48,542 bases of DNA, taken from NCBI GenBank assembly GCA_022572185.1, contig JACZWL010000023.1:1-48542 (forward strand). The letters are read 5' to 3'. The notes below the pieces were generated by a model. That model saw only the letters and a program-made list of their open reading frames with translations. It was not told the DNA's origin and made no database searches. This document shows positions 840-48,383 of the stretch, one piece after another (position 1 is the first letter of the stretch; each line of letters opens with the position of its first letter). The position numbers were made by a program, and so were the translations under genes. The DNA is from Pseudomonadota bacterium. GTDB taxonomy: Bacteria > Pseudomonadota > Gammaproteobacteria > Steroidobacterales > Woeseiaceae.

Positions 840-1001
840 GGTACTGTCAAGTTAAGGAATTCAGCAAGCGAAAGGTGGAAACGTTGGGCGTCTTTTGACC
901 TCCAATTCGGCTCTGAGACGGTGTTTGTATTCACATAGTGCGCGTGACTATCCCCCATCCAGTACAGCTAGCCCACGCCTCTGTCTTAACTTGACAGTAC
1001 C
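840..1001. mobile_element. 162-bp MITE-like element with perfect 17-bp terminal inverted repeats
   Basis: GGTACTGTCAAGTTAAG at 840-856 is the exact reverse complement of CTTAACTTGACAGTACC at 985-1001. A perfect 17-bp inverted repeat at this distance, beginning GGTACTGTCA, resembles the tips of IS6-like insertion sequences. The interior is only 128 bases and codes for nothing I recognise, so this looks like an internally deleted or non-autonomous derivative. I could not find a clear 8-bp target duplication (GTTTGTAC left, CTGAAAAC right), which suggests an old insertion or flank rearrangement. Confidence 0.6.
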
Positions 1002-1183
1002 CTGAAAACCGCTGATTTCATGTCGCCGAACAATGATCGCGCCCGAGTTACTTCAAAACCGCTTCTCTTACGGATGATGCACAGCCCCTTGCCCTGGCAT
1101 CCGGTATCGCCGCGAGGTTCTGCGGCCGTTTCGACTCGCGCCTGGCTCCGACAACGCGATAGAATTTCTGATCCTTTGTCCTT

Positions 1184-3411: not shown

Positions 3412-3466
3412 CGGCCCGCAATGCCGGATATTCTCCAAGCGCAACACGATATTGTAGAGCAATCCA

Positions 3467-4909
3467 ATGCGGCATCCTGATTCCCTCGAATTCTCCGCTA
3501 CCGAGACACGTCAACTCATCGACGCGGTCGCGGAGCGAATTGAACATCAGATTCGCACGCTGCCCGGACAGCCGGTCGACACATCCGGCGAGGTCAGTGC
3601 GGACCTGGTGCGTTCATTCAGGGAGGGGCTGCCCGAGAGCGCAACAGACTTCGATGAACTATTGAACCTGATCTTCGACAAGGCGGCGCCTGCGGGCCTT
3701 AACCCTACCTCGCCGGGCTTCATGGGCTACGTGCCGGGCGGCGGACTGTTTCACGCGGCGCTGGCCGACCTGATTTCGAACACGCTGAACCGCTATGTCG
3801 GTGTAACGATGGTGGCACCAGCCTTCGTGCAGATCGAGGCCAACGTCCTGCGCTGGTTCAGTGAGATCATCGGATACCCGGAGCAGGCACGCGGATTCCT
3901 GACCAGCGGCGGGTCAATGGCGACCTTGAGCGCCTTGATTACGGCGCGGCACGTGCGACTCGGTGAAGATTTCTCGAAGGCGGTCATCTATTTATCGGAT
4001 CAGATTCATCACTGCCTGAACAAGGCGGCCCGGCTGGCGGGATTCCCGGCCTCCGCTTTGCGTGTGCTGCCGGCCGACGAGGCGTTCAGGCTCGATCCCG
4101 ATGCGCTGCGCAAGGCGATGGCGGAAGACCGCTCGAGAGGTCTTGAGCCGTTTATGATCGCGGCGAGTGCCGGCACGACCAACACCGGCGCTATCGATCC
4201 GCTGCCGGAACTCGCCGCTATAGCGAGACAGGAGCATCTCTGGTTTCATGTGGACGCAGCCTACGGTGGATTTTTTTGCCTCACCGAACGGGGAAAGCAG
4301 AAACTCAAAGGGATCGAAATGGCCGATTCGGTCGTGCTCGATCCTCACAAGTCACTGTTCCTGCCTTACGGAACTGGTGCCCTGCTGGTGCGCGAAGGGC
4401 GCCACCTGAAGGCGACGCACAGCTCGGGCGCGGATTACATGCCGATGCTGCAGGAGGGCGATGAGCTGATGGATTTCTGCGAGCTGTCACCCGAGCTCAC
4501 ACGGCCGTTTCGCGGCCTGCGGGTCTGGCTGCCGATGAAAATGCATGGGGTCGGCGTGTTCAGAGATTACCTCGATGAAAAGCTCGATCTCACGGACTGG
4601 ATTCAGCAACAAATCGCGCAGCTGCCGGAGTTGGAAATAATTGCCCCGGCCGAGCTATCGATCATGGCGTTTGCGCTGCGCGACACGTTCGGGACGCTCG
4701 AGTCCAGAAACGCGGCGACGCGCAATCTAATGTCATTCATTAACAAGCAGCAGCGTGTCAGCCTGACCGGCACAACGGTCAGGGGCCTGTTTGTTATCCG
4801 TATCGCCGTACTGGTGTACCGCGTCCACCAGGAGCGCATGGAAATGCTGCTCGAAGATCTCAAGGCAGGTCTCGCCGCGATGGTATTCGGGGTCGCTCCA
4901 TCCCCTTGA
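3467..4909 (+). CDS. PLP-dependent group II amino-acid decarboxylase family protein
   Basis: A 480-residue fold-type I PLP enzyme of the aromatic amino-acid / glutamate decarboxylase family, full length for the group. FLTSGGSMATLSAL (144-157) is the cofactor phosphate loop. H181 in SDQIH is the ring-stacking His. D263 in HVDAAYGG contacts the pyridine nitrogen, and K295 in DPHK is the Schiff-base lysine. By hand alignment, the mobile-loop Tyr of aromatic decarboxylases (DYRHWQ...RRFRSLK) corresponds to F337 here (MDFCEL...RPFRGLR). A Tyr-to-Phe change at that site marks aldehyde-forming relatives in plants. Substrate is unknown. A permease and an aldehyde dehydrogenase follow downstream, which suggests amino-acid catabolism. 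Confidence 0.85.
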   Translation: MRHPDSLEFSATETRQLIDAVAERIEHQIRTLPGQPVDTSGEVSADLVRSFREGLPESATDFDELLNLIFDKAAPAGLNPTSPGFMGYVPGGGLFHAALADLISNTLNRYVGVTMVAPAFVQIEANVLRWFSEIIGYPEQARGFLTSGGSMATLSALITARHVRLGEDFSKAVIYLSDQIHHCLNKAARLAGFPASALRVLPADEAFRLDPDALRKAMAEDRSRGLEPFMIAASAGTTNTGAIDPLPELAAIARQEHLWFHVDAAYGGFFCLTERGKQKLKGIEMADSVVLDPHKSLFLPYGTGALLVREGRHLKATHSSGADYMPMLQEGDELMDFCELSPELTRPFRGLRVWLPMKMHGVGVFRDYLDEKLDLTDWIQQQIAQLPELEIIAPAELSIMAFALRDTFGTLESRNAATRNLMSFINKQQRVSLTGTTVRGLFVIRIAVLVYRVHQERMEMLLEDLKAGLAAMVFGVAPSP

Positions 4910-4939
4910 TTATTTCCTCTAATTTTCCTTGCTAATTAC

Positions 4940-4968
4940 TTGACAATTGTCTTTCCGCGAGGGATATT
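4940..4968 (+). promoter_or_regulatory. probable sigma-70 promoter of the HTH-ATPase-STAS gene
   Basis: TTGACA at 4940-4945 and GATATT at 4963-4968 are separated by 17 bases, a good -35 and a fair -10. The -35 lies inside the perfect palindrome GACAATTGTC (4942-4951), so a repressor bound there would block it. Inferred from sequence only. Confidence 0.45.
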
Positions 4969-5013
4969 GCTTGACAATTATCAGTAACATTACTTGACTA
5001 TTTGTTGACAATG
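4940..5013. repeat. four direct TTGAC(A/T)AT-type repeats, candidate operator array
   Basis: TTGACAATT at 4940 and 4971, TTGACTATT at 4994 and TTGACAATG at 5005 lie on the same strand. Start-to-start spacings are 31, 23 and 11 bases, close to three, two and one helical turns. The first copy belongs to the palindrome GACAATTGTC and the last overlaps the start codon. No Shine-Dalgarno sequence fits between the array and the start. The gene that follows encodes an HTH protein, so autoregulation is the obvious guess. Confidence 0.55.
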
Positions 5014-6048
5014 ACACCGTCGGAAAAGACCGCTTCGACTCGCGAATCAATTCTCGCCTTCATCAACGGCCAGGGATCGGCGACGAGCGCAGAGTTGGTC
5101 GATCACCTGGGAATTACGCGCCAGGCGATCAATTTGCACCTGCGAGCGCTGATCGATTCCGGGCAGATCATCAAGACCGGATCCACGAAAGCGGCGCGGT
5201 ATCTGCCCGACTCAGCAATTCCTGACGCACAGACCTTTTCCAGGAAATATGATCTGACCGGGCTTCAGGAGTCGGAAGTCTATGATCAGGTAGCCATATC
5301 ACTGAATCTTTCTCGACTCCGTCCAAGCGTAGAATCGATCGTCAACTATGCATTCACGGAAATACTCAACAATGCAATCGATCATTCGATGACCGACCGA
5401 TGCCATGTCAAGGTGAGCGTCGACGCAGGCAAGCTGAGCTTCGAGATACGGGACAGGGGCATTGGCGCATTCCGATCGATCGCCGATAAACACGAGCTCC
5501 CGGACGAACAGGCTGCGATGATCGAACTTGTCAAAGGCAAAACGACAACCATGCCTGAAACCCATACCGGCGAAGGTATCTTTTTTGTGTCCAAAGTCGC
5601 GGATCGTTTTCTTCTCCGATCGCATCGAATACAGCTTGAGTGGAACCGCGCGCTCGATGATGTATTCGTTTCGACACCGCGGTTCGGAAAAGGAACATTC
5701 GTGCGATTCGAGATCCAAAAGGATTCTCGCACCAGACTGGAATCCGTTTTCGAAGAGTTCGCGCCGGAAGCCTATGATTATCAGTTCCGAAAGACGCGTG
5801 TGCTTGTCAAGCTATTGGCAAGTGAATATGTATCGCGCTCCGAAGCCAAGCGGCTCATGCACAACCTGCACAAATTCTCAGAAGTTGAGCTGGACTTCCG
5901 CAAAGTACGCCATGTTGGACAGGGATTCGCTGATGAGGTCTTCCGGGTTTTTATATCAGAGCACCCGGATGTCGAAATTCGACCCGTGAACGCGAGCAAG
6001 AACATAGCCGCGATGATTCAACATGCAGGGGGGCCATCCGCCGGATGA
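5002..6048 (+). CDS. HTH + GHKL ATPase + STAS-like (DUF4325) regulator
   Basis: A 348-residue protein with three recognisable parts. A winged helix (about 12-68, including LGITRQAINLHLRAL) suggests DNA binding. A GHKL ATPase domain (about 95-240) has its N-box at FTEILNNAIDHS (118-129), G1 at DRGIG (151-155) and G2 at THTGEGIFF (188-195). A C-terminal DUF4325 STAS-like domain spans about 265-338. The STAS position that is a phosphorylated Ser in anti-anti-sigma factors reads VGQGFADE, so classic serine phosphorylation is unlikely. The start is TTG at 5002 or ATG at 5011, neither with a Shine-Dalgarno sequence. Targets are unknown; the flanking decarboxylase and permease genes are candidates. 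Confidence 0.85.
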   Translation: MLTMTPSEKTASTRESILAFINGQGSATSAELVDHLGITRQAINLHLRALIDSGQIIKTGSTKAARYLPDSAIPDAQTFSRKYDLTGLQESEVYDQVAISLNLSRLRPSVESIVNYAFTEILNNAIDHSMTDRCHVKVSVDAGKLSFEIRDRGIGAFRSIADKHELPDEQAAMIELVKGKTTTMPETHTGEGIFFVSKVADRFLLRSHRIQLEWNRALDDVFVSTPRFGKGTFVRFEIQKDSRTRLESVFEEFAPEAYDYQFRKTRVLVKLLASEYVSRSEAKRLMHNLHKFSEVELDFRKVRHVGQGFADEVFRVFISEHPDVEIRPVNASKNIAAMIQHAGGPSAG

Positions 6049-6247
6049 CGTTTCCGAATCAGTCTTGGCAAGCCGGGCACAGGCATCGCTCCGATGCAGT
6101 GAGTTGTCGCTTCCTGCAGCAATATCAATAACACCACCCCTGGAAAGCCATAATAAGGAAAACAACCTGGTACTTTTCTGCGTTTACTGCGGACAATCTG
6201 CTACGTATAGTCCTTGTAATGCCTGAGCGACAGGGGAGATACCGGCT

Positions 6248-7564
6248 TTGAGTCAGACAGCGGCGGGACACAATAAAAAGCTGGTCCGCGGCATCGGAAT
6301 TTTCGGCAGTGCGTTCCTGGTCCTGAACGGAATGATCGGTGCAGGAATATTTGCCCTGCCCTCTGTCGTTGCAGCAAGGGCGGGCGTATTAAGTCCCTGG
6401 CTTTTCCTGGCTGTCGGCGTGCTCATCATCACGGTCGTACTGACGTTTGCCGAATTGTCGAGCTACTTCAGAATATCCGGCGGGCCGGTAGTGTATGCGA
6501 CCAGGGCGTTTGGCCCGCTAACGGGATTCAGCACCGGCTGGATCTATTACGTGAGCCGTGCAGCGGCCCTGGCCGCAAATTCCAACGCCATGGCAATTTA
6601 CCTTGGGGCACTGTGGCCGTGGTTCGGCATCGATCCTGGCCGTGCTGTCGTGATCGTTGGCGTTTGCGGGGGCTTGACGCTTGTCAATGTGCTTGGTGTC
6701 AAAGACGGCGTGCGCACGCTGGCCTTTTTTACTTTCTTCAAAGTCATTCCGCTGCTGGTCATGATTCTGCTTGGCTTACAATATGTGAGCCCGGAAGTTT
6801 TATTTCCCGAAAATATGCCGACGATCGACGACCTTGGTGGAACCACCCTGCTGTTGATCTATGCATTCGTCGGATTTGAGACCGTCTTGATCACCGCGGG
6901 TGAAACAGCGAAACCGAAGATAACAATTCCCAAAGCGTTGATCCTCACCGTGATCGCCACCGGCGTCCTCTATTTCCTGATCGTACTCGTCTACGTCTCC
7001 GTCCTGCCCGGTGAAGTTACTGAGGGTGCGACACTGGTCGATGTTGGACGCAGACTGGCCGGACCCGTCGGTGCAATCGTGATTACCCTGGCGGCAATAT
7101 TTTCGATCGGTGGCAATCTTTCCAGCATCATGCTGGCCGTGCCGCGCCTGACATTCTCACTTGCAGAGCACCGCCTGTTGCCACCCTGGTTTGGTCACAT
7201 TCACGAAAAGTATTCATCGCCGGCCAACTCGATCGTTTTCCTCGGCGGCCTGGCGATGGTTCTCGCGCTTTCGGGCTCGTTCGTCCGTCTGGCAATCGCC
7301 GCTTCGTTGACACGGCTGATCACTTATATCGTCTGTATCGCGGCACTGCCTGTCATAAAGGGACAAGCGGACACCGCGACTATTGCGCGAGCATTTCGAA
7401 TCAAAGGCGGCTATACGATTCCGTTTATCGCCTTCTGCCTGTGCTTGTGGGTGACATCACACTCGTCGCTGGATTCATGGAAACTGGTTGGAGTTCTGCT
7501 CGCCGCGGGCCTGGTGCTCTTCTGGCTCGAGCAAATGCGCATCAGGAAGCAGCAGGCCGCCTAA
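6248..7564 (+). CDS. APC-superfamily amino-acid permease
   Basis: A 438-residue integral membrane protein with about twelve hydrophobic helices. The first helix carries the APC signature NGMIGAGIFALPS (about residues 28-40), where the unwound GAGIF segment binds the substrate backbone. The TTG start is supported by AGGGGAGA at 6231-6238, at normal spacing. It imports or exchanges an amino acid or amine; the substrate cannot be read from sequence. Lying between a decarboxylase/regulator pair and an aldehyde dehydrogenase, it could supply the decarboxylase substrate or exchange it for product. The 199-base gap upstream shows no repeat or terminator I can support. Confidence 0.88.
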   Translation: MSQTAAGHNKKLVRGIGIFGSAFLVLNGMIGAGIFALPSVVAARAGVLSPWLFLAVGVLIITVVLTFAELSSYFRISGGPVVYATRAFGPLTGFSTGWIYYVSRAAALAANSNAMAIYLGALWPWFGIDPGRAVVIVGVCGGLTLVNVLGVKDGVRTLAFFTFFKVIPLLVMILLGLQYVSPEVLFPENMPTIDDLGGTTLLLIYAFVGFETVLITAGETAKPKITIPKALILTVIATGVLYFLIVLVYVSVLPGEVTEGATLVDVGRRLAGPVGAIVITLAAIFSIGGNLSSIMLAVPRLTFSLAEHRLLPPWFGHIHEKYSSPANSIVFLGGLAMVLALSGSFVRLAIAASLTRLITYIVCIAALPVIKGQADTATIARAFRIKGGYTIPFIAFCLCLWVTSHSSLDSWKLVGVLLAAGLVLFWLEQMRIRKQQAA

Positions 7565-7628: not shown

Positions 7629-9068
7629 ATGCGCGAGATGCTGCAATTTTACATTGATGGCCAGTGGGTCGATCCCGTGACCGCGAACCCGTTCGATGTC
7701 ATCAACCCGGCCACGGAGGAAGTCTGCGGCCGGATCAGTCTGGGTTCGGAGGCGGACGTCGACAAAGCGGTCGCCGCGGCGGTCAAAGCCACCGACAGCT
7801 ATGCCGGCACGACCCGCGAAGAACGCATGGATTTACTGAAATCCATCCTCGACGTATTCAAGAAGCGGCAGGACGAGGTGGCCACGGCGATCATGGAGGA
7901 AATGGGCGCTCCCTGGGGACTGGCCAAGCATGCGCAGGCCCCGAGCGGAACCCAGCACATCGCTGCAGCGTTGAAGGCGCTCGAGAATTTCCAGTTTGAA
8001 GAGCGACATCGCACGACCAGTATCGTCAGGGAACCCATCGGGCCTTGTGCGCTGATCACGCCCTGGAACTGGCCGATAAACCAGGTTGTCGTCAAGGTGG
8101 CACCGGCATTGGCTGCCGGCTGCACGATGGTGTTGAAGCCGAGCGAGATCGCGCCATTCAACGCCATGATTTTCGCCGAGATCCTGGACGAGGCCGGTGT
8201 CCCCGCCGGCGTATTCAATCTGGTCAACGGCGATGGGCCGACGGTCGGCGCCGCTTTGAGCCGCCATCCCGATATCGCAATGGTCTCGTTCACGGGTTCG
8301 ACACGTGCGGGTATTGCCGTTGCACAGAACGCCGCACCCAGTATCAAGCGCGTTGCACAGGAACTCGGTGGCAAGTCGGCGAACATCATTCTCGATGATG
8401 CCGATTTGCAAAAAGCGGTGTCGAAAGGTGCAGCGGACTGCTTCGAGAATACCGGGCAGTCCTGCGATGCCCCGAGCCGCATGCTGGTACCGAGGGACAA
8501 GATTAATGCAGCGGCTGAGATCGCCAAAGCGACGGCCGAGGCGACTGTGGTCGGCGATCCGCAGGCCGAAGGGACTCAGATGGGACCGCTGGTATCGGAT
8601 CAGCAGTGGCACAAGGTCCAGGCGCTGATTCAGGCGGGCATCGACGAGGGTGCGACACTTGTCACGGGCGGCACCGGGCGTCCTGAAGGCCTGGCGAAAG
8701 GCTATTACGTCAAACCGACCGTCTTTTCCAACGTCAATAATGATATGACCATCGCCCGGGAAGAGATTTTCGGTCCGGTGCTGTCGATCATCCCTTACGA
8801 TGACGATGACGAGGCGATACGCATTGCGAATGAAACGCCGTACGGTTTGTCCGCTTACGTAAGCTCAGCCAATATCGAGCGTGCGCGGATGGTGGCCAGC
8901 AGGCTCAGAACCGGCATGGTGCATATCAACGGCGCGCCGTTGGATTCGCAGGCGCCATTCGGCGGTTACAAGCAATCGGGCAATGGCCGGGAATGGGGGC
9001 CACACGGCATCGAAGAGTTCCTCGAGCTCAAGTCCGTGTATGGTTTCGAGCCGAGGAAGGCCGGTTAG
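7629..9068 (+). CDS. NAD(P)-dependent aldehyde dehydrogenase
   Basis: A 479-residue cytosolic aldehyde dehydrogenase with all key residues: N147 in TPWNWP, K170 in MVLKPSE, general base E245 in QELGGKS, nucleophile C279 in NTGQSC, and the coenzyme-binding EEIFGPVLS near residue 380. An ATG nine bases upstream at 7620 lies directly on the ribosome-binding site AAGGAG (7614-7619), so the ATG at 7629 with 8-9 base spacing is chosen. It oxidises an aldehyde to the acid; the natural substrate is unknown. It lies 64 bases after the permease and may be co-transcribed with it, consistent with oxidising an aldehyde derived from the imported amino acid. Confidence 0.92.
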   Translation: MREMLQFYIDGQWVDPVTANPFDVINPATEEVCGRISLGSEADVDKAVAAAVKATDSYAGTTREERMDLLKSILDVFKKRQDEVATAIMEEMGAPWGLAKHAQAPSGTQHIAAALKALENFQFEERHRTTSIVREPIGPCALITPWNWPINQVVVKVAPALAAGCTMVLKPSEIAPFNAMIFAEILDEAGVPAGVFNLVNGDGPTVGAALSRHPDIAMVSFTGSTRAGIAVAQNAAPSIKRVAQELGGKSANIILDDADLQKAVSKGAADCFENTGQSCDAPSRMLVPRDKINAAAEIAKATAEATVVGDPQAEGTQMGPLVSDQQWHKVQALIQAGIDEGATLVTGGTGRPEGLAKGYYVKPTVFSNVNNDMTIAREEIFGPVLSIIPYDDDDEAIRIANETPYGLSAYVSSANIERARMVASRLRTGMVHINGAPLDSQAPFGGYKQSGNGREWGPHGIEEFLELKSVYGFEPRKAG

Positions 9069-23296: not shown

Positions 23297-24763
23297 ATGA
23301 GACTCCGCGGCCCACAATCGCTTAACGGACTGATTCTGGTCGGCTTCGGTCTGGTCGCGCTGCCGCTCCTGGTGGCCGTGATCTGGGCGCTGGTCAACCT
23401 GGACCGCCTCGCCGAACAGAGCGAGCAGCTCGTGATATCCGGCGTGTCCGGGGCCGAGAACAACCGGCAACTGGTGGACCAGATCGCATCACTCGAGCGT
23501 CTGTCACGGCAGTATCAGGTGCTGCGAAACGCCGACAGCCTGACGATCCTGCAACAGGACCTGGCGAGCGTTCAAGCGACGCTCGACAGCATAAGACCGC
23601 TGGCCGAGCAGGCCGATGCCCTGACCCTGGTTGACTCGGTCGGCGTTACTGCGAAGCGCATCGTCTTCACGCTGCTGCAGGCCGAGAGCGATCCCGGCAA
23701 AGCACAGATCGCCATCGACGATTTCGCGAAGCTGAGGCAACGCGTCACACAGCTGACGACAATCCTGCGCAGCCACATCGAGACGGAGCTCAGCAACCTG
23801 CAGGAGAGCACGCGTCACGCGCAGCAGGTCTCCGCCTGGCAGACCGCGGCACTCATTCCAGGCACGATTATCCTGGTGCTGTTCTTTACGCTGCTCGTTG
23901 CCCGCCCGATCCGCCAGATCGACCGGGCCATTAATCAGCTCGGTCAAAGCGGTTTTTCACAACCGATCCACGTCAAGGGCCCGACCGACCTCGAGAAGCT
24001 CGGCCGCCAGCTCGAATGGCTCCGGGTCAGGCTCCTCGGGCTCGCCCAGGAGAAGAACCGTTTCCTCAGACACATGTCGCACGAACTCAAGACGCCGCTT
24101 GCGAATATTCGCGAAGGCACCGAGCTGCTCCTGGACGGCACGGTCGGCGAACTCGAGACACCGCAGCGCGAGGTCACCGATATTCTGCGCCTCAACGGGC
24201 TCAAACTGCAGCAGCTCATCGAGAACCTGTTGTCGTTCAGCGCCTGGCAGACCAAGAACGAGGTGCTGACCCTGACCGACTTCCCGCTGCGCGCACTCGT
24301 TATCTCGGTGGCAAAAACACAGCGCCTGGCCCTCAAGTCCGCACACATTCAGCTACAGCTCGAGGTCGAAGACTTCTCCGTCAACGCCGACCGGGACAAG
24401 ATGCGGACGGTGATCGACAACCTCTTGTCGAACGCCATCAAGTTCACGCCGCAGGGTGGCACGATCACCATTGCGGCCCATGCAGAGCCGAACAGTTTCG
24501 TGCTCGAGTTCGCAGACACGGGACCCGGCATACCGGAGCATGAAATTCCCCGTATCTTCGAGGCATTCTTCCAGGGCGGCCAGGAACAGGCCGGCCACAT
24601 TGCAGGCACGGGAATTGGGCTATCCGTCGTGCTGGAGTGCATACAGGCGCACGAGGGTTCAGTAGAATTGGTCAATTCGGATGAGTATTCGGGCGCGCAC
24701 TTCCGCATTCACATTCCGCAAAAACAGGTGGCCGAGCAAACGAGGATCGCTGCAAATGCGTAG
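23297..24763 (+). CDS. glrK: sensor histidine kinase, GlrK/QseE-like
   Basis: A 488-residue kinase. A transmembrane helix lies at about 13-35, a periplasmic helical region extends to about 185, a second helix at about 188-205, then HAMP (about 206-255). The HisKA domain has H262 in RHMSHELKTPL. The HATPase domain shows the N-box (DNLLSNAIKFTP), G1 (DTGPGI) and GTGIGLSV. The assignment to GlrK rests mainly on order: it is followed by a coiled-coil lipoprotein overlapping its stop codon and then by a GlrR-type sigma-54 activator, the glrK-qseG-glrR arrangement of enterobacteria. It should phosphorylate that regulator in response to an envelope signal. Confidence 0.88.
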   Translation: MRLRGPQSLNGLILVGFGLVALPLLVAVIWALVNLDRLAEQSEQLVISGVSGAENNRQLVDQIASLERLSRQYQVLRNADSLTILQQDLASVQATLDSIRPLAEQADALTLVDSVGVTAKRIVFTLLQAESDPGKAQIAIDDFAKLRQRVTQLTTILRSHIETELSNLQESTRHAQQVSAWQTAALIPGTIILVLFFTLLVARPIRQIDRAINQLGQSGFSQPIHVKGPTDLEKLGRQLEWLRVRLLGLAQEKNRFLRHMSHELKTPLANIREGTELLLDGTVGELETPQREVTDILRLNGLKLQQLIENLLSFSAWQTKNEVLTLTDFPLRALVISVAKTQRLALKSAHIQLQLEVEDFSVNADRDKMRTVIDNLLSNAIKFTPQGGTITIAAHAEPNSFVLEFADTGPGIPEHEIPRIFEAFFQGGQEQAGHIAGTGIGLSVVLECIQAHEGSVELVNSDEYSGAHFRIHIPQKQVAEQTRIAANA

Positions 24764-25391
24764 ATCGTTGCCGACAAATGCTTTAAGAAATATCGCGGCC
24801 CTGGCGATCCTGGTGGCGTTGACGGCCGGCTGCGCGCAAACCCAGGAGTGGCTGAACGGCATTCGCGCGCCAAGATCGAGCGAGTCCGTCATCCTCGGCG
24901 CGCCTGGGGCTGAACAATACCTCCAGGAAATGTACCAACTCGCGCGCGGGGATCCGGCGACTCAGGCGGAGATTTACGCGGACGCCGAGTCGACCGCCAA
25001 ACTGACGCCGGGCCCCTCGACCAAACTTCGTTATGCGCTGATACTTGCCACACCCGGACATTCCGCGAACAACCCGCAGGAGGCACTGGGTATTTTTCGC
25101 GAGCTGCTTTCCCAGACCGAAATGATGACGCCGGCGGAGATTGCGCTCGCCAGCATTCACCTGGATGTCGTGGAACAACAAATCGTATTCGGCGCCGAAA
25201 ACAGGCGGCTGCGCTCGGTAAATTCACGGGCCGCAACAAGCGAGGAGCAGGCGGTTGCCCAGCGCATCGCCAAGGTTGAATCTGAAAACCGGCAATTGCG
25301 GCGTTCGCTGCAGGAAGCGGAACAAAAGCTCGACGCGATCACCTCGATCGAGCGATCGATCCGCGAACAAGCGAACAGTGGAACTCAATAG
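24756..25391 (+). CDS. QseG-like coiled-coil lipoprotein
   Basis: A 211-residue protein with a lipoprotein signal (hydrophobic 13-25, lipobox LTAGC, C26) and a C-terminal coiled coil (about 150-205, rich in Glu/Arg/Gln heptads such as RIAKVESENRQLRRSLQEAE). Its ATG overlaps the glrK stop by 8 bases (ATGCGTAG), so the two are translationally coupled. In E. coli the middle gene of this operon, qseG, encodes an outer-membrane lipoprotein that contacts and controls the kinase. Sequence identity is too low to judge by eye, so the call leans on position, signal and coiled coil. Confidence 0.75.
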   Translation: MRRSLPTNALRNIAALAILVALTAGCAQTQEWLNGIRAPRSSESVILGAPGAEQYLQEMYQLARGDPATQAEIYADAESTAKLTPGPSTKLRYALILATPGHSANNPQEALGIFRELLSQTEMMTPAEIALASIHLDVVEQQIVFGAENRRLRSVNSRAATSEEQAVAQRIAKVESENRQLRRSLQEAEQKLDAITSIERSIREQANSGTQ

Positions 25392-25405
25392 TCAGATAAG
25401 CGCTC

Positions 25406-25460
25406 GTCCTGACGGGCGAATGGACAACTGTAGGAGCGCGTCCTGACGGGCGAATAGACA
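25406..25460. repeat. two copies of the GTCCTGACGGGCGAA unit
   Basis: GTCCTGACGGGCGAAT followed by (G/A)GACAACTGT occurs at about 25406-25431 and 25440-25463, separated by AGGAGCGC. The same 15-base core, sometimes degenerate, recurs at 27174-27184, 29327-29342, 29391-29401 and 33524-33539, and partly in the repeat elements at 10650 and 33485. Confidence 0.65.
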
Positions 25461-25463
25461 ACT

Positions 25464-25537
25464 GTGGGAGCGGCTTTTTGTACATGGATGTACTTATATC
25501 GCGAAGTGCAGGATGCGCGAGAGCGATGCAGCCGCGA
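25464..25537 (+). repeat. composite REP element, copy 2 (5' side of glrR)
   Basis: It begins GTGGGAGCGGCTTTTTGTAC, continues through the palindrome GTACAT-GG-ATGTAC and TTATATCGCGA, and ends GCGAGAGCGATGCAGCCGCGA. The same ~73 bases lie in the opposite orientation at 26931-27004, just after glrR. An in-frame ATG at 25513 falls inside this element. Confidence 0.8.
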
Positions 25538-25548
25538 AAATATTTAAC

Positions 25549-26901
25549 ATGGCACAAACTGCAAGCAAAACCAACGGCAAAATCCTGCTGGTCGATGACG
25601 ACCCGGGCCTGCTTCGCCTGTTAAGCATCCGGCTGCGCGCCGAGGATTATGAAGTGGAGGCGGTGGAAAGCGCACACGACGCGCTCGCCATCCTGCATCG
25701 TTTTCGTCCCGATCTTGTCATCACCGATCTGCGCATGGACAAGATGGACGGCATCGCCCTTCTCAAGGAACTGCAGACACGTTCTCCCGGCCTGCGCGTG
25801 CTCATCATCACGGCGCACGGCACCATCCCTGACGCCGTTGTGGCGACGCAAAGTGGCGCGTTCGGATTTCTGACGAAGCCCATCGACAAAGACGAACTCA
25901 TGAGCACGGTCGAGCGTGCCATGAAAATTTCGGGCTCTGTCGAGGTCGCCGAGGACTGGGCTGCCGAGATCATTACCCGCAACCAGGTCCTCAAAGAGCG
26001 CCTGGCGCAGGCAAAGATGGTCGCCGCCACCGACGCCCGCGTCTTGATCACGGGCGCCAGCGGCACCGGCAAGGAGCTGCTCGCCAAAGCCATCCATCGA
26101 GCCAGCCCGAGACAGAACAAGGCGTTTGTTGCCATTAACTGCAGCGCTATGGCCGAGAACCTGCTCGAGTCAGAACTCTTCGGGCACGAGAAAGGTGCCT
26201 TCACGGGCGCGGTAAGAAGCCACAATGGCCTGTTCCAGGCCGCTGACGGCGGCACGCTGTTGCTCGATGAGATCGGCGACATGCCGATGCGGCTGCAGGT
26301 CAAACTTCTGCGCGTGCTGCAAGAGCATCAGGTACGGCCCGTCGGCAGCGCCGAGGCAGTCCACGTGGATGTCCGCGTAATATCGGCAACCCACCACGAC
26401 TTGCAGGAGATGATGGCCCATGGAAAATTTCGTGAAGATCTGTTCTATCGTCTGAACGTTGTCAACATTCACCTCCCGGTCCTGGATGAACGGCGCGAAG
26501 ATATCCCGCTGCTCGTCTCAAGTTTTCTGCAGGAAATCGCCGGGGAAGCCGGCCAGGAAAGAAAAGTGTATGCGCCGGAGGCCGTCGAACTGCTCGTCGC
26601 GGCCGAATGGCCCGGCAACGTTCGCCAGCTCTTCAACATTGTGCGGCAGAATGTCGCACTGTCACGCTCACCGGTCATGAGCGGCGAGCTCGTGCAGACA
26701 TCACTGGGCGAACACGCCGGCAAACTCGCCTCATTCAGCGAGGCCAGAGACGAGTTCACGCGGAACTACCTGTCACAGATTCTGCAGATCACGATGGGCA
26801 ACGTCAGCCAGGCCGCCAGGCTCGCCAAGCGCAACCGCACCGACTTCTACAAGTTACTCGCCCGCCACGACCTGAACCCGGACACCTTCAAGTCGCGTTA
26901 G
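25549..26901 (+). CDS. glrR: sigma-54-dependent response regulator, GlrR/QseF-like
   Basis: A 450-residue regulator, close to E. coli GlrR in length. The receiver (1-125) has the acidic pocket DDD (16-18), phospho-acceptor D60 in LVITDLRMD, and the conserved Lys in FLTKPID. The AAA+ domain shows Walker A GASGTGKE, the sigma-54-contacting GAFTGA and Walker B LLLDEIGD. The C-terminal HTH ends FYKLLARHDLNPDTFK, a GlrR hallmark. It should activate sigma-54 promoters when phosphorylated by the upstream kinase. ATG at 25549 lacks a clear ribosome-binding site. An ATG 12 codons upstream lies within a REP element and would add repeat-encoded residues. Confidence 0.9.
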   Translation: MAQTASKTNGKILLVDDDPGLLRLLSIRLRAEDYEVEAVESAHDALAILHRFRPDLVITDLRMDKMDGIALLKELQTRSPGLRVLIITAHGTIPDAVVATQSGAFGFLTKPIDKDELMSTVERAMKISGSVEVAEDWAAEIITRNQVLKERLAQAKMVAATDARVLITGASGTGKELLAKAIHRASPRQNKAFVAINCSAMAENLLESELFGHEKGAFTGAVRSHNGLFQAADGGTLLLDEIGDMPMRLQVKLLRVLQEHQVRPVGSAEAVHVDVRVISATHHDLQEMMAHGKFREDLFYRLNVVNIHLPVLDERREDIPLLVSSFLQEIAGEAGQERKVYAPEAVELLVAAEWPGNVRQLFNIVRQNVALSRSPVMSGELVQTSLGEHAGKLASFSEARDEFTRNYLSQILQITMGNVSQAARLAKRNRTDFYKLLARHDLNPDTFKSR

Positions 26902-43876: not shown

Positions 43877-44836
43877 CTATTTTGAAGCAATCCACGCCGA
43901 TATCCTCAGGACTGCGGGTCCGATCGCGACGATAAAAAACACCGGAAACATGCAGAGTACCAACGGAAAAATTAGCATTGTGCCCATTTTCGCTGCCTGT
44001 TCCTCGGCTCTTTGCATGCGCTTATCACGGAATTCATCCGAGTAAACACGTAAAGCGTCACTGACGCTGGTGCCAAAGCGCATTGTCTGCACCAGTAGTC
44101 CGACAAGACCCCTAATATCCGGCACACCGGTCCTGTCAGCGAGATTTCTCAACGCCTGTTCGCGAGGCATTCCGGCGCGAACTTCTGCGCTAACGGTCGA
44201 TAGCTCGAACGCCAGTTCGGGATGACTGACATCGAGTTCATCTGCCACTCGCTGGATGGCGGCGGCTAGGCCAAGGCCGGCCTCGACGCAGACCACCAGC
44301 AGATCCAGGGCGTCGGGAAAGGCGTTTCTCAGGCTCTTGATCCGCCTCTCGACTAATTTGCGAAGCACGATGTTGGGCCCCAGTAAGCCGATGCCAGCCG
44401 CGACCATCGCGTATGTAAATGTGGAACGAGTCTCGATTTCCGGAAACCACCGCGAGCTGATCACGACCAGCATGGGCAGGGCGACAGCCAGTAGAGTCTT
44501 TGTCGCGTAGAACACCTGCAAAGCCTGCGGCGACCGGAATCCGGCGCGAGCCAGCTGTCGCGTCACATTATGGCGTTCCATTTCTTTCTGCGGCAGTATG
44601 TAGCTGGCGACCGGGCCCAGCGCCGTGGTGACACGTATCATGAGTGGGTCTTTGACAGGCGGCGCATCTCCACCGAGCCCCATCCGGCGGCGAACCGGGC
44701 TCGTCAAATTCATTATCAGCACGGTTAGCCCGATACCCAGGATGAATATTGTCGTAGCAGAGAGGCCGACGAGGACTCGACGAAGAATGGCTTCGTCGTT
44801 CCAGTAGCTGTTCAAGAGATCGAAGAACGCCTCCAT
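43877..44836 (-). CDS. tadC: TadC, Tad pilus inner-membrane platform
   Basis: A 319-residue type II secretion F-domain protein with hydrophobic helices near the N-terminus (about 20-40), centrally (about 110-150) and at the C-terminus (about 285-310). The T2SSF domain includes LPDALDLLVVCVEAGLGLAAAIQRVA-like FPDALDLLVVCVEAGLG and VQTMRFGTSVSDALRVYSDEFRDKRMQRAEE, the second being diagnostic. It pairs with TadB to form the platform on which the ATPase TadA works. Its ATG follows the tadB stop by four bases. Confidence 0.93.
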   Translation of the reverse strand: MEAFFDLLNSYWNDEAILRRVLVGLSATTIFILGIGLTVLIMNLTSPVRRRMGLGGDAPPVKDPLMIRVTTALGPVASYILPQKEMERHNVTRQLARAGFRSPQALQVFYATKTLLAVALPMLVVISSRWFPEIETRSTFTYAMVAAGIGLLGPNIVLRKLVERRIKSLRNAFPDALDLLVVCVEAGLGLAAAIQRVADELDVSHPELAFELSTVSAEVRAGMPREQALRNLADRTGVPDIRGLVGLLVQTMRFGTSVSDALRVYSDEFRDKRMQRAEEQAAKMGTMLIFPLVLCMFPVFFIVAIGPAVLRISAWIASK

Positions 44837-44840
44837 GACA

Positions 44841-45815
44841 CTATACCTCGATCCTTATAATTTTTCGGATCCAGAATATTCCTACCACTCCAGAGAAGAA
44901 GCCGTACACAATCATTTTCTGGCCGCGCGGGTCGTCGAGTAATACAGGAAGATAGTCGGGTGTGGTGAACCACAGTGCTACAAACAGGACCAATGGCACC
45001 ATTGCCAGAACCCACGCTGACATCCGGCCTTCCGCCGAATACGTTTGTACCTTGCGTTGCAATCGAAACCGGCCACGAATGACGATCGAGATCTTTTCCA
45101 ATATCTCTGCGAGATTGCCACCGGTTTCTTTTTGCACGAGAATTGAAGTGACCAGCGCCATCACAGTTACACTGGGCATGCGCGACAACAGGCCAAGCAT
45201 CGCCTTGCGGACATCGTTGCCGTAGTTGATATCACCGAAGGTCAATTCGAACTCTGCGGCGACCGGATCATCCATCTCTTCCGCGACCAGTTTCAAGGAG
45301 GCACCCAGGGGATGTCCTGCTTTCAAGGCACGCTTCATCGTGTCAATAGCATCCGGTAATTGCTCCTCAAACATTTTCGTGCGCTTGACTCGATCCATGC
45401 TGATTTTCATGAAAGGCAAATACATCGCCAGCAATGCAGTAGAGATCGACACCACGGGCATGCGGATATAGGGCCAGCTGACCAGCAACGCGGTGACCCC
45501 GATTCCCAGCGAAATGAGCACCAGCCGATAGGCGAGTATCTTGTGTCCGGCCTGCTCGATCCGGCGCGCCAGGGCTTCCATCGCGGCGAACGATTCAAGT
45601 CGGCGTTCGAGCGGTGACAGGTGGCGCAGGTATTTTTCACGCAGTAACGACGAGAACGCCTCCGCATCGCCGACGGCCTCTATGTCAGCTATGCGTTTCT
45701 TAAGTCTTTTTCGGGCTTTGGCGCTTTCGCCGAAGACCGGCACAACCAGCCCCTGCATCAACAGGACAACGGTGACAAAGACCATCACGATGAATATCTG
45801 CGCGCCGCCACTCAT
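44841..45815 (-). CDS. tadB: TadB, Tad pilus inner-membrane platform
   Basis: A 324-residue protein with an N-terminal helix (about 5-25), two central helices and two C-terminal helices. The T2SSF domain contains LPDAIDTMKRALKAGHPLGASLKLVAEEM and QKETGGNLAEILEKISIVIRGRFRLQRKVQTYSAEGRMSAW, typical for TadB. ATG at 45815 lies one base after the tadA stop; the frame is open upstream, but the family N-terminus starts here. It works with TadC. Confidence 0.93.
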   Translation of the reverse strand: MSGGAQIFIVMVFVTVVLLMQGLVVPVFGESAKARKRLKKRIADIEAVGDAEAFSSLLREKYLRHLSPLERRLESFAAMEALARRIEQAGHKILAYRLVLISLGIGVTALLVSWPYIRMPVVSISTALLAMYLPFMKISMDRVKRTKMFEEQLPDAIDTMKRALKAGHPLGASLKLVAEEMDDPVAAEFELTFGDINYGNDVRKAMLGLLSRMPSVTVMALVTSILVQKETGGNLAEILEKISIVIRGRFRLQRKVQTYSAEGRMSAWVLAMVPLVLFVALWFTTPDYLPVLLDDPRGQKMIVYGFFSGVVGIFWIRKIIRIEV

Positions 45816-45816
45816 T

Positions 45817-47190
45817 TTACTTGCTTCCCATTTGAGACCAGTCCGGCTCAAAGACTTCTATGGGAAGATCAATGCCACGCTGCGCCAGGCCTTTATGAAA
45901 GGCGGGAATGATTCCGGTGGCTTGCATCTTGCCAATGACGTTATTGTCGTCGTCCATGCCTTCGCGTTGAAAGGCAAACAGCTCGGACATGGTGATAACG
46001 TCGCCTTCCATGCCGTTTATTTCCTGTACGCTCACCAGCTTGCGCTTGCCGTCCTCGAGGCGAGCGATTTGCAGCACGATGTCGATTGCCGACGCAATCT
46101 GTGACCGCAAAGCGTTTATCAGAAAGGCAATGCCGGTCATAAACACCATATTTTCAATACGACCAAGGGCGTCTCTCGGAGAGTTCGCATGGATGGTCGT
46201 GAGCGAACCGTCGTGGCCCGTGTTCATGGCTTGCAGCATATCGAGCGCTTCGCCGCCGCGAACCTCGCCGATGATGATGCGTTCAGGCCTCATGCGGAGG
46301 CTGTTCCTCACCAGGTCTCGGGAGGTCACCTCGCCTTTTGACTCGATGTTCGGAGGCCTGGTTTCCAGGCGGACGACGTGAGGCTGCTGTAGCTGCAGCT
46401 CGGCCGAGTCTTCTATCGTTACGATGCGCTCGTCCTCCGGTATGTAGCCCGACAGGATATTGAGCATCGTCGTCTTGCCGGCACCCGTGCCACCGGAAAC
46501 AACGACATTGAGCCGTGCTCTGACGATTGCGGACAGCACCTGAGCGACTTCCTCTGTCACTGTGCCCAGCTCGATCATGTTATCCATCGAAAGCAATTCG
46601 ACGCCAAATCGACGGATAGACAACATTGCGCCGTCGATGGCCAGAGGTGGAATGATGGCGTTTACGCGTGAGCCGTCGGCCAGCCGCGCGTCGACCATGG
46701 GTGATGACTCGTCAATGCGTCGTCCGACAGCCGAGACAATGCGATCAATCGTGTTGAGCAGATGCGCAGGGTCGGTAAACCGGGCATTGGTGAGTTCCAG
46801 TTTGCCTCGTCGCTCGATATAAATGGTATCGAAGCCATTAACCAGTATGTCGGAAATCGTCTGATCGGCGAGCAGGGGCTCCAAAGGCCCGAGTCCCATG
46901 ACTTCGTCCTCAATACGCTCCACGATGAGTTGACGTTGCCTGCGGCTGAGTGGCGCAGACGCCTCGGTCAGCAGCCGCTCGACGATTTCGCGAATTTCCT
47001 TGCGTGCTTTGTCAGTCTCGACTGTGTCGATGAGAGACAAATCGAGTACAGTGAGCAGTTGCTCGTTAATGCGCTGCTTCCATTCTGTTTCCTGAGCCGT
47101 CAAGGGACGGGTCCGGTCTGCATCTTCGCCGCCTGCGTCGGCGAAGTCCTTACTTAGGCGACTCAAGCGGTTTTTGACGACCGTTGCCAT
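45817..47190 (-). CDS. tadA: TadA/CpaF pilus-assembly ATPase
   Basis: A 457-residue secretion ATPase of the CpaF type. Walker A is [14 protein letters not shown] (about 233-246). The Asp box contains [13 protein letters not shown], Walker B is [26 protein letters not shown], and a His box follows ([15 protein letters not shown]). The N-terminal part (about 60-215) carries the usual three-helix region and [18 protein letters not shown]. It powers pilus assembly and retraction with TadB/TadC. The start ATG overlaps the tadZ stop by one base (TGATG), so translation is coupled. Confidence 0.95.
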
Positions 47191-48383
47191 CAGCTCATCC
47201 TCTCTCTCAAGAACATCGGCAGTGCCCGCTTCAGAAAGTTTTGACTGGGCTTGCTCGCCGAATCAACAAGTGCGGCTTGCAGATTTCGGATGCCTTTCGT
47301 CAAAGCGGCGGTCTTTGAAATCTCTGCAACTGGAATGCCCGAATTGATACTTTCGGTGGCGAGCTTGTACTGGTTGGGAATTGTGATCAGTTTGTCCTGA
47401 CGCAGTGTTTTCTTTATGTCGCCGAGCTCTATAGGCGCACTTTTGGAAAATCGATTGACGACCACGCTGATTCGCTTCTTGGGGATGACAATTTCGCTCG
47501 TCAGTAACTGGAGCAACCGTGCGGCGTCGTGAATGTGAGGCAAGGACTGTTGAACGATCAGAACGATCTTGTCAGCACGCTCCAGGAAGAATTCCGTGAC
47601 TGCGTCCAGCCGGCTGGGCGAATCAGCGACGACATAATCGTTGTTAGACAGAAAGAAGTCGAGCAGAGAGTCAAGTTTTTCGATCGGGATTTCATTTGGC
47701 AGTGCAAGATGCTTCGATGGCGCCGCGAGTAATCGCAATCCGCTCGAATGCTCACACGTGTATGCCTTGGCGGAGACTTCATCCATGTCGTGAGCGGCGT
47801 CGAGAGCTTCCAGGATGCCGACCTTAGGAGTGATATCGAGATAGCGGCAGAGACCGCCGAACTGAAGGTCGAGATCGACAAGCGTCACACGGTGCCCACC
47901 GTCGACGACCAGGCTATGCGCGAGATTCGTTGAAAGGAAGCTGGCGCCGGAGCCGCCTTTGCCGTTTGTAAAGACAATGAGTTTTCCTGACCCCGACGTC
48001 CTGGCCCGCAACGTTTCCTCTTGGATTCGTGCAAGGCTCGCGACAAGATCTGCCTCAGACACGTTTTCCGGCAGATAGTCACGGGCACCGGCCCGCATGG
48101 CCAGGCGCATTGCCTCCGGATCATTTTCCGGCCCGCAGACAATCAATGGCAGATGATCTCTCGTCCCTTGCTCCGCCAGAAACTGGAGTTCGCTCTGGCC
48201 CGACCCGTAGTGGAGGAATAACAGGTCCGGCAGCTCGCTGACACCGTACAGAGGATCCGGGTGCCCGTTGCCAATGACCCGCGTTTTCACCCGGAACTCG
48301 GGGTGCTTGGTCAGGCGAGCGGCGAGTCTCTCGGCAGTCGATCCTGAACGACTCGCAACAATTACATGGAATGTCATCGGCAA
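47190..48383 (-). CDS. tadZ: TadZ/CpaE, MinD-like polar localisation ATPase
   Basis: A 397-residue protein. Residues 1-122 form an atypical receiver-like domain, ending [24 protein letters not shown]. The MinD/ParA ATPase core starts at [11 protein letters not shown] (141-151). The usual second Lys of the deviant Walker A (KGGxGK) is Ala147, as in other TadZ/CpaE proteins. VDLDLQFGG and [10 protein letters not shown] follow. TadZ places the Tad apparatus at a cell pole. The TTG start at 48383 is chosen because AGGAGG lies eight bases upstream; an ATG two codons later would be 14 bases away. Confidence 0.92.

Follow-up and report, generated by a model that had tools for sequence, protein, structure and literature searches.

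The stretch of DNA analysed here, referred to as the window, comprises 48,542 nucleotides of contig JACZWL010000023.1 (assembly GCA_022572185.1) from a gammaproteobacterium of the Woeseiaceae. An open reading frame (ORF) at 5002-6048 encodes a protein in which a winged helix-turn-helix (wHTH), a GHKL ATPase/kinase-like domain and a STAS-like DUF4325 domain are joined in one chain. We consider it likely that this gene is a stand-alone, horizontally moving autorepressor whose GHKL-STAS core acts as the switch, and that it does not control the genes beside it. A helically phased array of direct repeats at the gene's own promoter, differing among homologues with the recognition helix of the wHTH, provides strong indirect evidence that the protein is a DNA-binding regulator. 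Autorepression through such a co-varying operator is well supported at the level of sequence comparison.

A repeat array at the gene's own promoter

Four TTGACAATT-type repeats span positions 4940-5013, preceded by a degenerate copy; counted from that copy, the successive spacings are 11, 31, 23 and 11 bp (Table 1). The array covers the best -35 hexamer (repeat 1) as well as the likely start codon (repeat 4). A preliminary description of this DNA had missed the array, which reads as a putative operator of the gene itself. The promoter is weak evidence when taken alone, with two sites found by the scan in this region and a mean of 1.2 in shuffled sequence.

Homologues in gammaproteobacterial and deltaproteobacterial genomes and on viral contigs likewise have repeats of this sort before them, with distances that are mostly close to 11, 22 or 33 bp. 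Four or more copies of a single 8-mer (one mismatch) were present just upstream of 21/39 homologues compared with 11/349 neighbouring ORFs at the same loci (Fisher p 1.8e-16); the region counted was 146 bp from a start set by profile match for the homologues and 140 bp from the longest-ORF start for the control ORFs. At least two copies were present in 44/63 homologues by a looser count and in 41/63 by exact copies. The 44 homologues yielded 89 spacings, of which 12 were 10-11 bp, 51 were 21-23 bp, 21 were 29-34 bp, two were 44 bp and three fell elsewhere. These values correspond to whole helical turns. A check on distinct layouts used 22 loci picked by hand, and its Rayleigh values are descriptive.

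The repeat also differs with residues 40-41 of the recognition helix. Homologues with RQ or RA at this position have TTGACAA, TTTACAA or, in one case, GTTTACAT, while KQ goes with TTGTCGA, PQ or AQ with TTTAAGAAA, RT with GTTATAA, and LN with AACTTTA/AGTTAA. The repeat classes of the exact count, to which 41/63 homologues were assigned, were defined after the upstream regions had been inspected. On a tree of 59 homologues, repeat class is clustered, with 17 changes compared with a mean of 33.1 after shuffling. The suggestion in the preliminary description that this is a self-contained DNA-binding GHKL/STAS protein lacking the phospho-serine gains from a phased array that varies with the putative DNA-reading helix.

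When the window's genome was searched with a paired TTGACAAT pattern, both of the two matches were at the gene itself; a looser pattern gave three matches, two at the gene and one elsewhere with two mismatches. For two other repeat classes, searched in seven genomes, all 10 matches lay before the homologue's own gene and the control pattern gave none; one genome (G203) had no match. The TTKACAA class gave 44 array matches in 20 genomes, 24 of them at the own gene, and the reversed control pattern gave 11; five of the 20 genomes, the window's among them, had no match at the spacing used. No regulon with the same array was found in the window's genome or in the seven genomes of the two other classes.

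A deltaproteobacterial clade (L008, L009, L010/L129, L131 and L132 in our locus numbering) carries a further array at the 3' end of the gene. It has the same orientation and nearly the spacing of the upstream array, lies 1,061-1,066 bp from it and is spaced 23/11 bp (24/11 bp in L132, with the last copy degenerate); its coordinates are 9004-9046 in L008 and 5522-5564 in L009. In the tree, L009 and L010 are labelled Thermodesulfobacteriota and L008 Myxococcota. The called gene that follows the 3' array lies on the other strand in L008 and in L009, is a 103-aa co-directional ORF in L010 and is missing from the stretch available for L132; in L009 an opposite-strand tRNA-Leu follows the array. A repression loop between the two arrays would be the simplest guess. 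L009 also carries nine tandem copies of GGACTGA (7 bp) at 4372-4434, just upstream of the homologue's operator array.

Table 1. Features in and around the wHTH-GHKL-STAS gene (positions in the window)
Feature	Position	Strand	Remarks
Degenerate repeat TTGCTAATT	4929..4937	+	before repeat 1
Putative operator repeat 1 TTGACAATT	4940..4948	+	TTGACA (4940-4945) is also the best -35-like hexamer
-10-like hexamer GATATT	4963..4968	+	17 nt after TTGACA; 10/12 consensus matches
Putative operator repeat 2 TTGACAATT	4971..4979	+
Putative operator repeat 3 TTGACTATT	4994..5002	+
Putative operator repeat 4 TTGACAATG	5005..5013	+	overlaps likely start codon
wHTH-GHKL-STAS(DUF4325) protein gene	5011..6048	+	likeliest start ATG 5011; ORF from TTG 5002
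Winged HTH, residues 13-70	5038..5211	+	Pfam HTH_24; model and VIA-align winged-helix matches, Z ~10
Recognition helix, residues 40-53	5119-5160	+	within winged HTH
GHKL ATPase/kinase-like domain, residues 77-240	5230..5721	+	HATPase_c_2; SpoIIAB Z 13.3; invariant residues
STAS-like DUF4325, residues 264-343	5791..6030	+	Pfam; Foldseek of domain; residue counts
GQGFADE, residues 306-312	5917-5937	+	Gly308 (5923-5925) at phospho-Ser position
Promoter-like site TTTACT-17-TATAGT	6183..6211	+	before permease gene (6248-7564); weak, 9/12 consensus

Domain architecture and invariant residues

The ORF is open from a TTG at 5002 to the stop at 6048 on the forward strand (348 aa). The ATG at 5011 is the likelier start, because the aligned N-termini of relatives begin nearby and residues 1-10 are modelled with a predicted local distance difference test score (pLDDT) below 50. 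That a DNA-binding part, a histidine-kinase-like ATPase and DUF4325 share one chain, as had been proposed, was borne out by a domain search. HTH_24 (residues 13-56, 25.4 bits, gathering cut-off 21.9), HATPase_c_2 (residues 103-203, 33.4 bits, cut-off 27.4) and DUF4325 (PF14213; residues 281-335, 55.3 bits, cut-off 23) all score above their Pfam gathering thresholds, and HATPase_c passes too. Domain searches found no toxin-like domain in the chain.

An AlphaFold model of the whole protein had a mean pLDDT of 83 and a predicted template modelling score (pTM) of 0.74. In VIA-align comparisons, its first domain matched winged helices of the ArsR/MarR/Z-alpha type, and the best match of residues 75-242 was SpoIIAB (1til; root-mean-square deviation 2.7, 129 residues). 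Residues E120, N123, N124, H128, G153, G155, G190 and G192 are identical in 63/63 aligned homologues, the window's included, while D127 is Glu in six and D151 is Glu in three. We take these groups of nucleotide-site residues to be the N, G1 and G2 boxes. With both the predicted fold and the nucleotide-site residues present, the domain is of the SpoIIAB/RsbW type. The conserved KGK (178-180) was considered as the counterpart of the single-stranded DNA (ssDNA)-contact lysines of the kinase CapK and is not claimed as such, as the distances from the N-box Asn do not fit.

The STAS part predicted alone had a pLDDT of 79, and its best Foldseek matches include RsbS (E 0.088), SLC26/prestin and other STAS proteins, all of them weak, with none at E below 0.001. 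Its phospho-serine position is Gly in 34/63 homologues and Ala in 29/63 and is never Ser or Thr; the position was equated with the SpoIIAA/CapS serine by the order of secondary-structure elements (start of the second STAS helix), without superposition. This agrees with the earlier reading of the window's sequence, according to which the position is not Ser. S278 and S280 in the STAS part are invariant in 63/63 homologues; either one as a substitute phospho-site was considered and is not claimed. Stand-alone DUF4325 ORFs, examined at 12 loci, have Ser at the phospho position in 7/9 readable cases (L158, L161 and L162 were unreadable by the rule used, and four further matches had no locus). That count leaves out two ORFs with Gly, L157 (a 48-aa fragment) and L163 (a copy of the STAS part of a fused gene), and one of the seven Ser-bearing ORFs, L136, may itself be a truncated fused gene. 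The 63 homologues contain the near-duplicates L010/L129, L097/L098, L023/L055 and L079/L080, and the tree was built on 59; gene calls in the relatives are longest-ORF calls.

Distribution and mobility

At E 1e-20, a homologue was found in 33/369 genomes of the class, the window's own included, and these belong to 31 families; two of the 33 (G097, G209) match in the STAS part only and three (G059, G174, G186) are partial or split. Among 40 close relatives, a homologue is present in two, one of them being the window's own genome. In the class of a deltaproteobacterial relative, 7/42 genomes match, two in part. The range of the family takes in gamma- and deltaproteobacterial genomes, Lachnospiraceae and viral contigs. 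A viral collection contributed 20 homologue loci. By eye, a terminase gene adjoins the homologue at two of these (L092, L095), tail genes surround it at three (L085, L082, L088) and an integrase gene is near it at one (L079). In the tree, copies from the viral collection and from chromosomes are intermixed. From these patterns the protein seems to be solitary and horizontally mobile between bacteria and phages. A tblastn search of a phage collection gave no match with the window protein or with a homologue from the viral collection, and a search of plasmids with the window protein gave only two short matches confined to the HTH.

Two homologue loci show peculiarities of their own. At L042 (G174), the homologue at 1172-2211 lies in two overlapping frames and looks frameshifted or misassembled, with its upstream repeats remaining. 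At L070 (7959-10133 of G037:C72), a separate short STAS ORF lies about 1 kb downstream of the full gene.

Neighbouring genes

The regulator gene is on the same strand as its neighbours, 93 bp from a decarboxylase gene and 200 bp from a permease gene. The scan found no terminator-like site after it. The weak promoter-like site before the permease gene hints at independent transcription of the permease.

The preliminary description had suggested that the protein controls the flanking catabolic genes and that orthologues should be surveyed for decarboxylase, permease or dehydrogenase genes nearby. None of 11 homologue loci (8-17 kb each) has the decarboxylase, permease or dehydrogenase of the window, and among the 127 nearest neighbours at 37 loci no Pfam family occurs in more than three. 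The homologues are found in unrelated contexts with no shared target, an outcome that the preliminary description had itself named as counting against its proposal and that does so as regards the target. The array, moreover, was found only at the own gene, and a decarboxylase copy occurs without the regulator. That copy, in the window's own genome (G000:C60:436-1851, L181), has 95.7% nucleotide identity over window positions 3454-4882, and neither array nor regulator is present in the 429 bp left after it on its contig. The data do not support control over the flanking genes; a pathway-specific regulator was considered and rejected, conserved linkage with targets not having been found. The identity between the decarboxylase copies sets in a little ahead of the ORF and breaks off close to its 3' end, and strain variation in the assembly is a possible source. 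The copy on C60 is followed by an opposite-strand gene that reads as a PIN-domain gene, and the same contig shares a second short stretch with window positions 921-1002 (84 bp, 81%).

An all-against-all comparison over 44 loci, with the window cut to its first 14 kb, gave few shared neighbours: clusters over six, four, three and three loci, plus pairs. Many of the pairs come from the near-identical loci L003/L004 and L008/L010; elsewhere, L064 and L077 have two genes in common. Of 39 loci, 16 have a convergent downstream gene, 21 a co-directional one and two none. In the same 44-locus comparison, the only recurring ORF of the window's first 14 kb is an AAA ATPase ORF at 1184-2359, which reads as of the DUF4143 kind and forms one of the clusters together with L070 (10335-11531) and L071 (9075-9371).

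Defence genes adjoin the homologue at a few loci. L064 (365-8588) and L077 (3830-11478) are Hma-type defence loci in which the HmaB and HmaC genes flank a homologue, full in L064 and a STAS-only piece (7953-8204) in L077. At L011 the homologue is followed after 60 bp by the gene of an SNF2 helicase that matches DpdE and ZorD. L064 has a stand-alone DUF4325 match at 365-559 as well. PADLOC profiles at E 1e-15 gave 72 families over 127 of the 131 near neighbours and 17 over 127 of the 193 farther ORFs, families being counted and not proteins. The near set omits L055:6684-11219 (earlier scanned without a match), L065:2369-5428, L051:10657-12963 and L067:5449-7620, and the far set consists of 131 ORFs drawn at random with the last four omitted. 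Of the 25 families shown for the near set, 14 carry the E-values of the single L011 helicase. Defence genes in general are not clearly enriched among the neighbours.

Farther along the window, three genes in a row at 23297-26901 encode a histidine kinase, a lipoprotein and a sigma-54 response regulator, resembling a GlrK-QseG-GlrR operon. Genes at 43877-48383 read by eye as components of Tad-pilus secretion (TadC, TadB, CpaF, CpaE-like).

Comparison with described systems

The nearest described system, on our best reading, is the two-protein DNA-damage switch CapK-CapS, of which the window protein would be a one-chain, domain-permuted relative. According to PMC13373217 (EMBO J 2026), CapK is an ssDNA-activated HTH-STAS-GHKL kinase that phosphorylates CapS, a STAS-wHTH repressor whose own promoter is also among its targets. 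CapS has a conserved phospho-serine and palindromic TTAA operators, the STAS domain of CapK helps sensing and is not the substrate, and a known or predicted immune operon lies downstream in 348/443 cases (same paper). The likeness lies in the HTH, STAS and GHKL parts and in the SpoIIAB-type kinase fold; CapS is also, as we predict for the window protein, a STAS protein that binds DNA and shuts off its own promoter. In contrast to two adjacent genes, the window has one chain in the order wHTH-GHKL-STAS and its genome has no second DUF4325 match; the conserved Ser on the second STAS helix of CapS is Gly or Ala in 63/63 fused homologues; and the palindromic CapS sites are replaced here by direct-repeat arrays. 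Where CapK-CapS has its immune operon, the window has an amino-acid permease gene and the family no common downstream operon, the two Hma-type loci excepted. The window protein is not a member of CapK-CapS, because it has neither the two-gene layout nor the phospho-Ser nor the downstream immune operon. On present evidence we predict that it works like CapK-CapS folded into one chain with another domain order. The term DUF4325 does not occur in PMC13373217, and in the passages shown the word fused refers to tags and vectors.

Other systems share fewer of these traits. In VapKSC, as described in that paper, GHKL and small STAS proteins likewise act together, but there are three genes including a VapC toxin, VapS has a conserved Ser/Thr and no wHTH is described (PMC13373217). 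SpoIIAB/SpoIIAA and RsbW/RsbV share the GHKL fold and a STAS-like partner domain; in contrast, as also summarised in PMC13373217, the parts of these switches are individual proteins that target sigma factors, a Ser is phosphorylated and there is no DNA-binding domain. Proteins with PF14213 have the same C-terminal domain and can be phage-borne: according to PMC7924643, phage vB_FhiM_KIRK encodes a 112-aa DUF4325 protein beside a hypothetical protein of 293 aa that could, but need not, be a GHKL partner. Stand-alone members mostly keep the Ser that is Gly or Ala in the fused chain. In the open-licence literature searched, DUF4325 was named in two papers, in tables, and no description of a one-chain wHTH-GHKL-STAS family was found.

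Proposed mechanism and alternatives

Based on these observations, we predict that the N-terminal winged helix binds the direct-repeat array in its own promoter, a step strongly supported by sequence. Because the repeats are spaced by whole helical turns, bound copies would line up on one face of the DNA, and because the -35 hexamer and the likely start codon lie within the array, binding would shut the gene off. The fold and the invariant residues suggest that the GHKL domain dimerises and binds ATP, and that this domain and the STAS-like one jointly determine whether the chain grips DNA. With Gly or Ala in place of the acceptor Ser, release could not be the classical phospho-Ser step; it would have to be driven by a nucleotide or ligand, or proceed via another residue. 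The trigger, by analogy with CapK-CapS only, may be DNA damage, perhaps ssDNA between the GHKL and STAS domains, and would lead to a burst of protein. We infer ATP- and damage-driven release from the fold and from CapK-CapS. As output we envisage either the protein itself or, in some hosts, a single neighbouring gene, and not the decarboxylase, permease or dehydrogenase genes.

Several observations weigh against this model. Two exact copies of one repeat are lacking in 22/63 homologues, and 19/63 have no pair by the looser count, in which the motifs differ from those of the exact count. The 21 homologues with four or more 8-mer copies include L009, which owes its place to an unrelated tandem repeat of 7 bp, though three operator copies are present there too. 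L132, with a KQ helix and TTGAC[TAG]A repeats, is a counterexample to the match between helix and repeat. Most repeat classes are single clades in which helix and repeat are both inherited, and therefore the independent events are few and much of the association is descent. The commonest repeat holds the -35 consensus TTGACA, so its count could be inflated, which does not apply to the TTGTCGA, TTTAAGAAA or GTTATAA classes. With 20/44 TTKACAA matches away from the own gene, further targets are possible, and with a co-directional downstream neighbour in 21/37 loci, the protein may serve a local gene in some hosts. Finally, the domains of CapK are arranged HTH-STAS-GHKL, and in the published assay CapK could do without its HTH (PMC13373217).

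Among the alternatives, we regard as unlikely a stand-alone defence or abortive-infection gene that is autorepressed and released by phage or damage, its GHKL-STAS protein then harming or alerting the cell, phosphorylation of a host protein being one conceivable route. Such a role would be in keeping with the homologues carried by viral contigs, some of which lie among tail genes or beside a terminase gene (by eye), with the position between HmaB and HmaC in L064 and L077, with the DpdE/ZorD-like helicase gene of L011 and with the dedicated array without an evident regulon. CapK-CapS and VapKSC are moreover immune controllers (PMC13373217), but the PADLOC comparison and the chain free of any toxin-like domain found argue the other way. 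We are more doubtful of a bolder version of autorepression, a self-caging gene. Here the protein would bind phased arrays, at both gene ends about 1,066 bp apart in the deltaproteobacterial clade, and an ATP-driven GHKL dimer would clamp or loop the DNA until ssDNA from phage attack or damage appeared, whereupon the released protein would act as a stress or anti-phage effector. If true, sensor, repressor and effector would be a single mobile gene and a single protein, built from partner-switch parts without the phospho-Ser. It is rather improbable, too, that the protein is a kinase for an unlinked Ser-bearing STAS partner, with its fused STAS only helping sensing as in CapK. The Ser of most readable stand-alone DUF4325 ORFs fits this idea, as does the CapK STAS domain, which is not the substrate (PMC13373217). 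Against it, the one DUF4325 match of the own genome is the regulator itself (other STAS families were not searched), and the array tied to the protein's own wHTH would go unexplained.

We place little belief in the two remaining explanations. Local regulation of the flanking amino-acid decarboxylase, permease and aldehyde dehydrogenase genes could appeal to their close, same-strand arrangement and to readthrough into the permease, possible because the scan found no terminator-like site. The neighbourhoods of the homologues, the restriction of the array to the own promoter, the decarboxylase copy that lacks the regulator as far as its contig reaches and the permease's own weak promoter-like site all speak against such regulation. 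The repeats could also belong to another host factor, as iterons, -35 decoys or a recombination site; TTGACA is the sigma-70 -35 consensus, and the deltaproteobacterial 3' array lies where a promoter operator is unexpected. But the repeat varies by subclade with the recognition helix while helical spacing is kept, and the array precedes the gene across genomes and contexts and, in three pattern tests, occurs nowhere else. An autorepressor switch with its own operator remains the reading that we prefer.

Implications

Usual accounts of partner switching describe a phospho-relay in which several proteins act in turn on sigma factors. In the present family, one chain unites kinase fold, STAS domain and DNA-binding domain, and each of the 63 aligned relatives has Gly or Ala in place of the acceptor Ser. 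Because the repeat differs with the recognition helix, the putative operator can be read from sequence, and the operator classes offer ready binding sites for biochemistry. This makes it possible to test how GHKL-STAS switching may work without phosphorylation at the classical site, and what role a solitary gene that represses itself would play once released.

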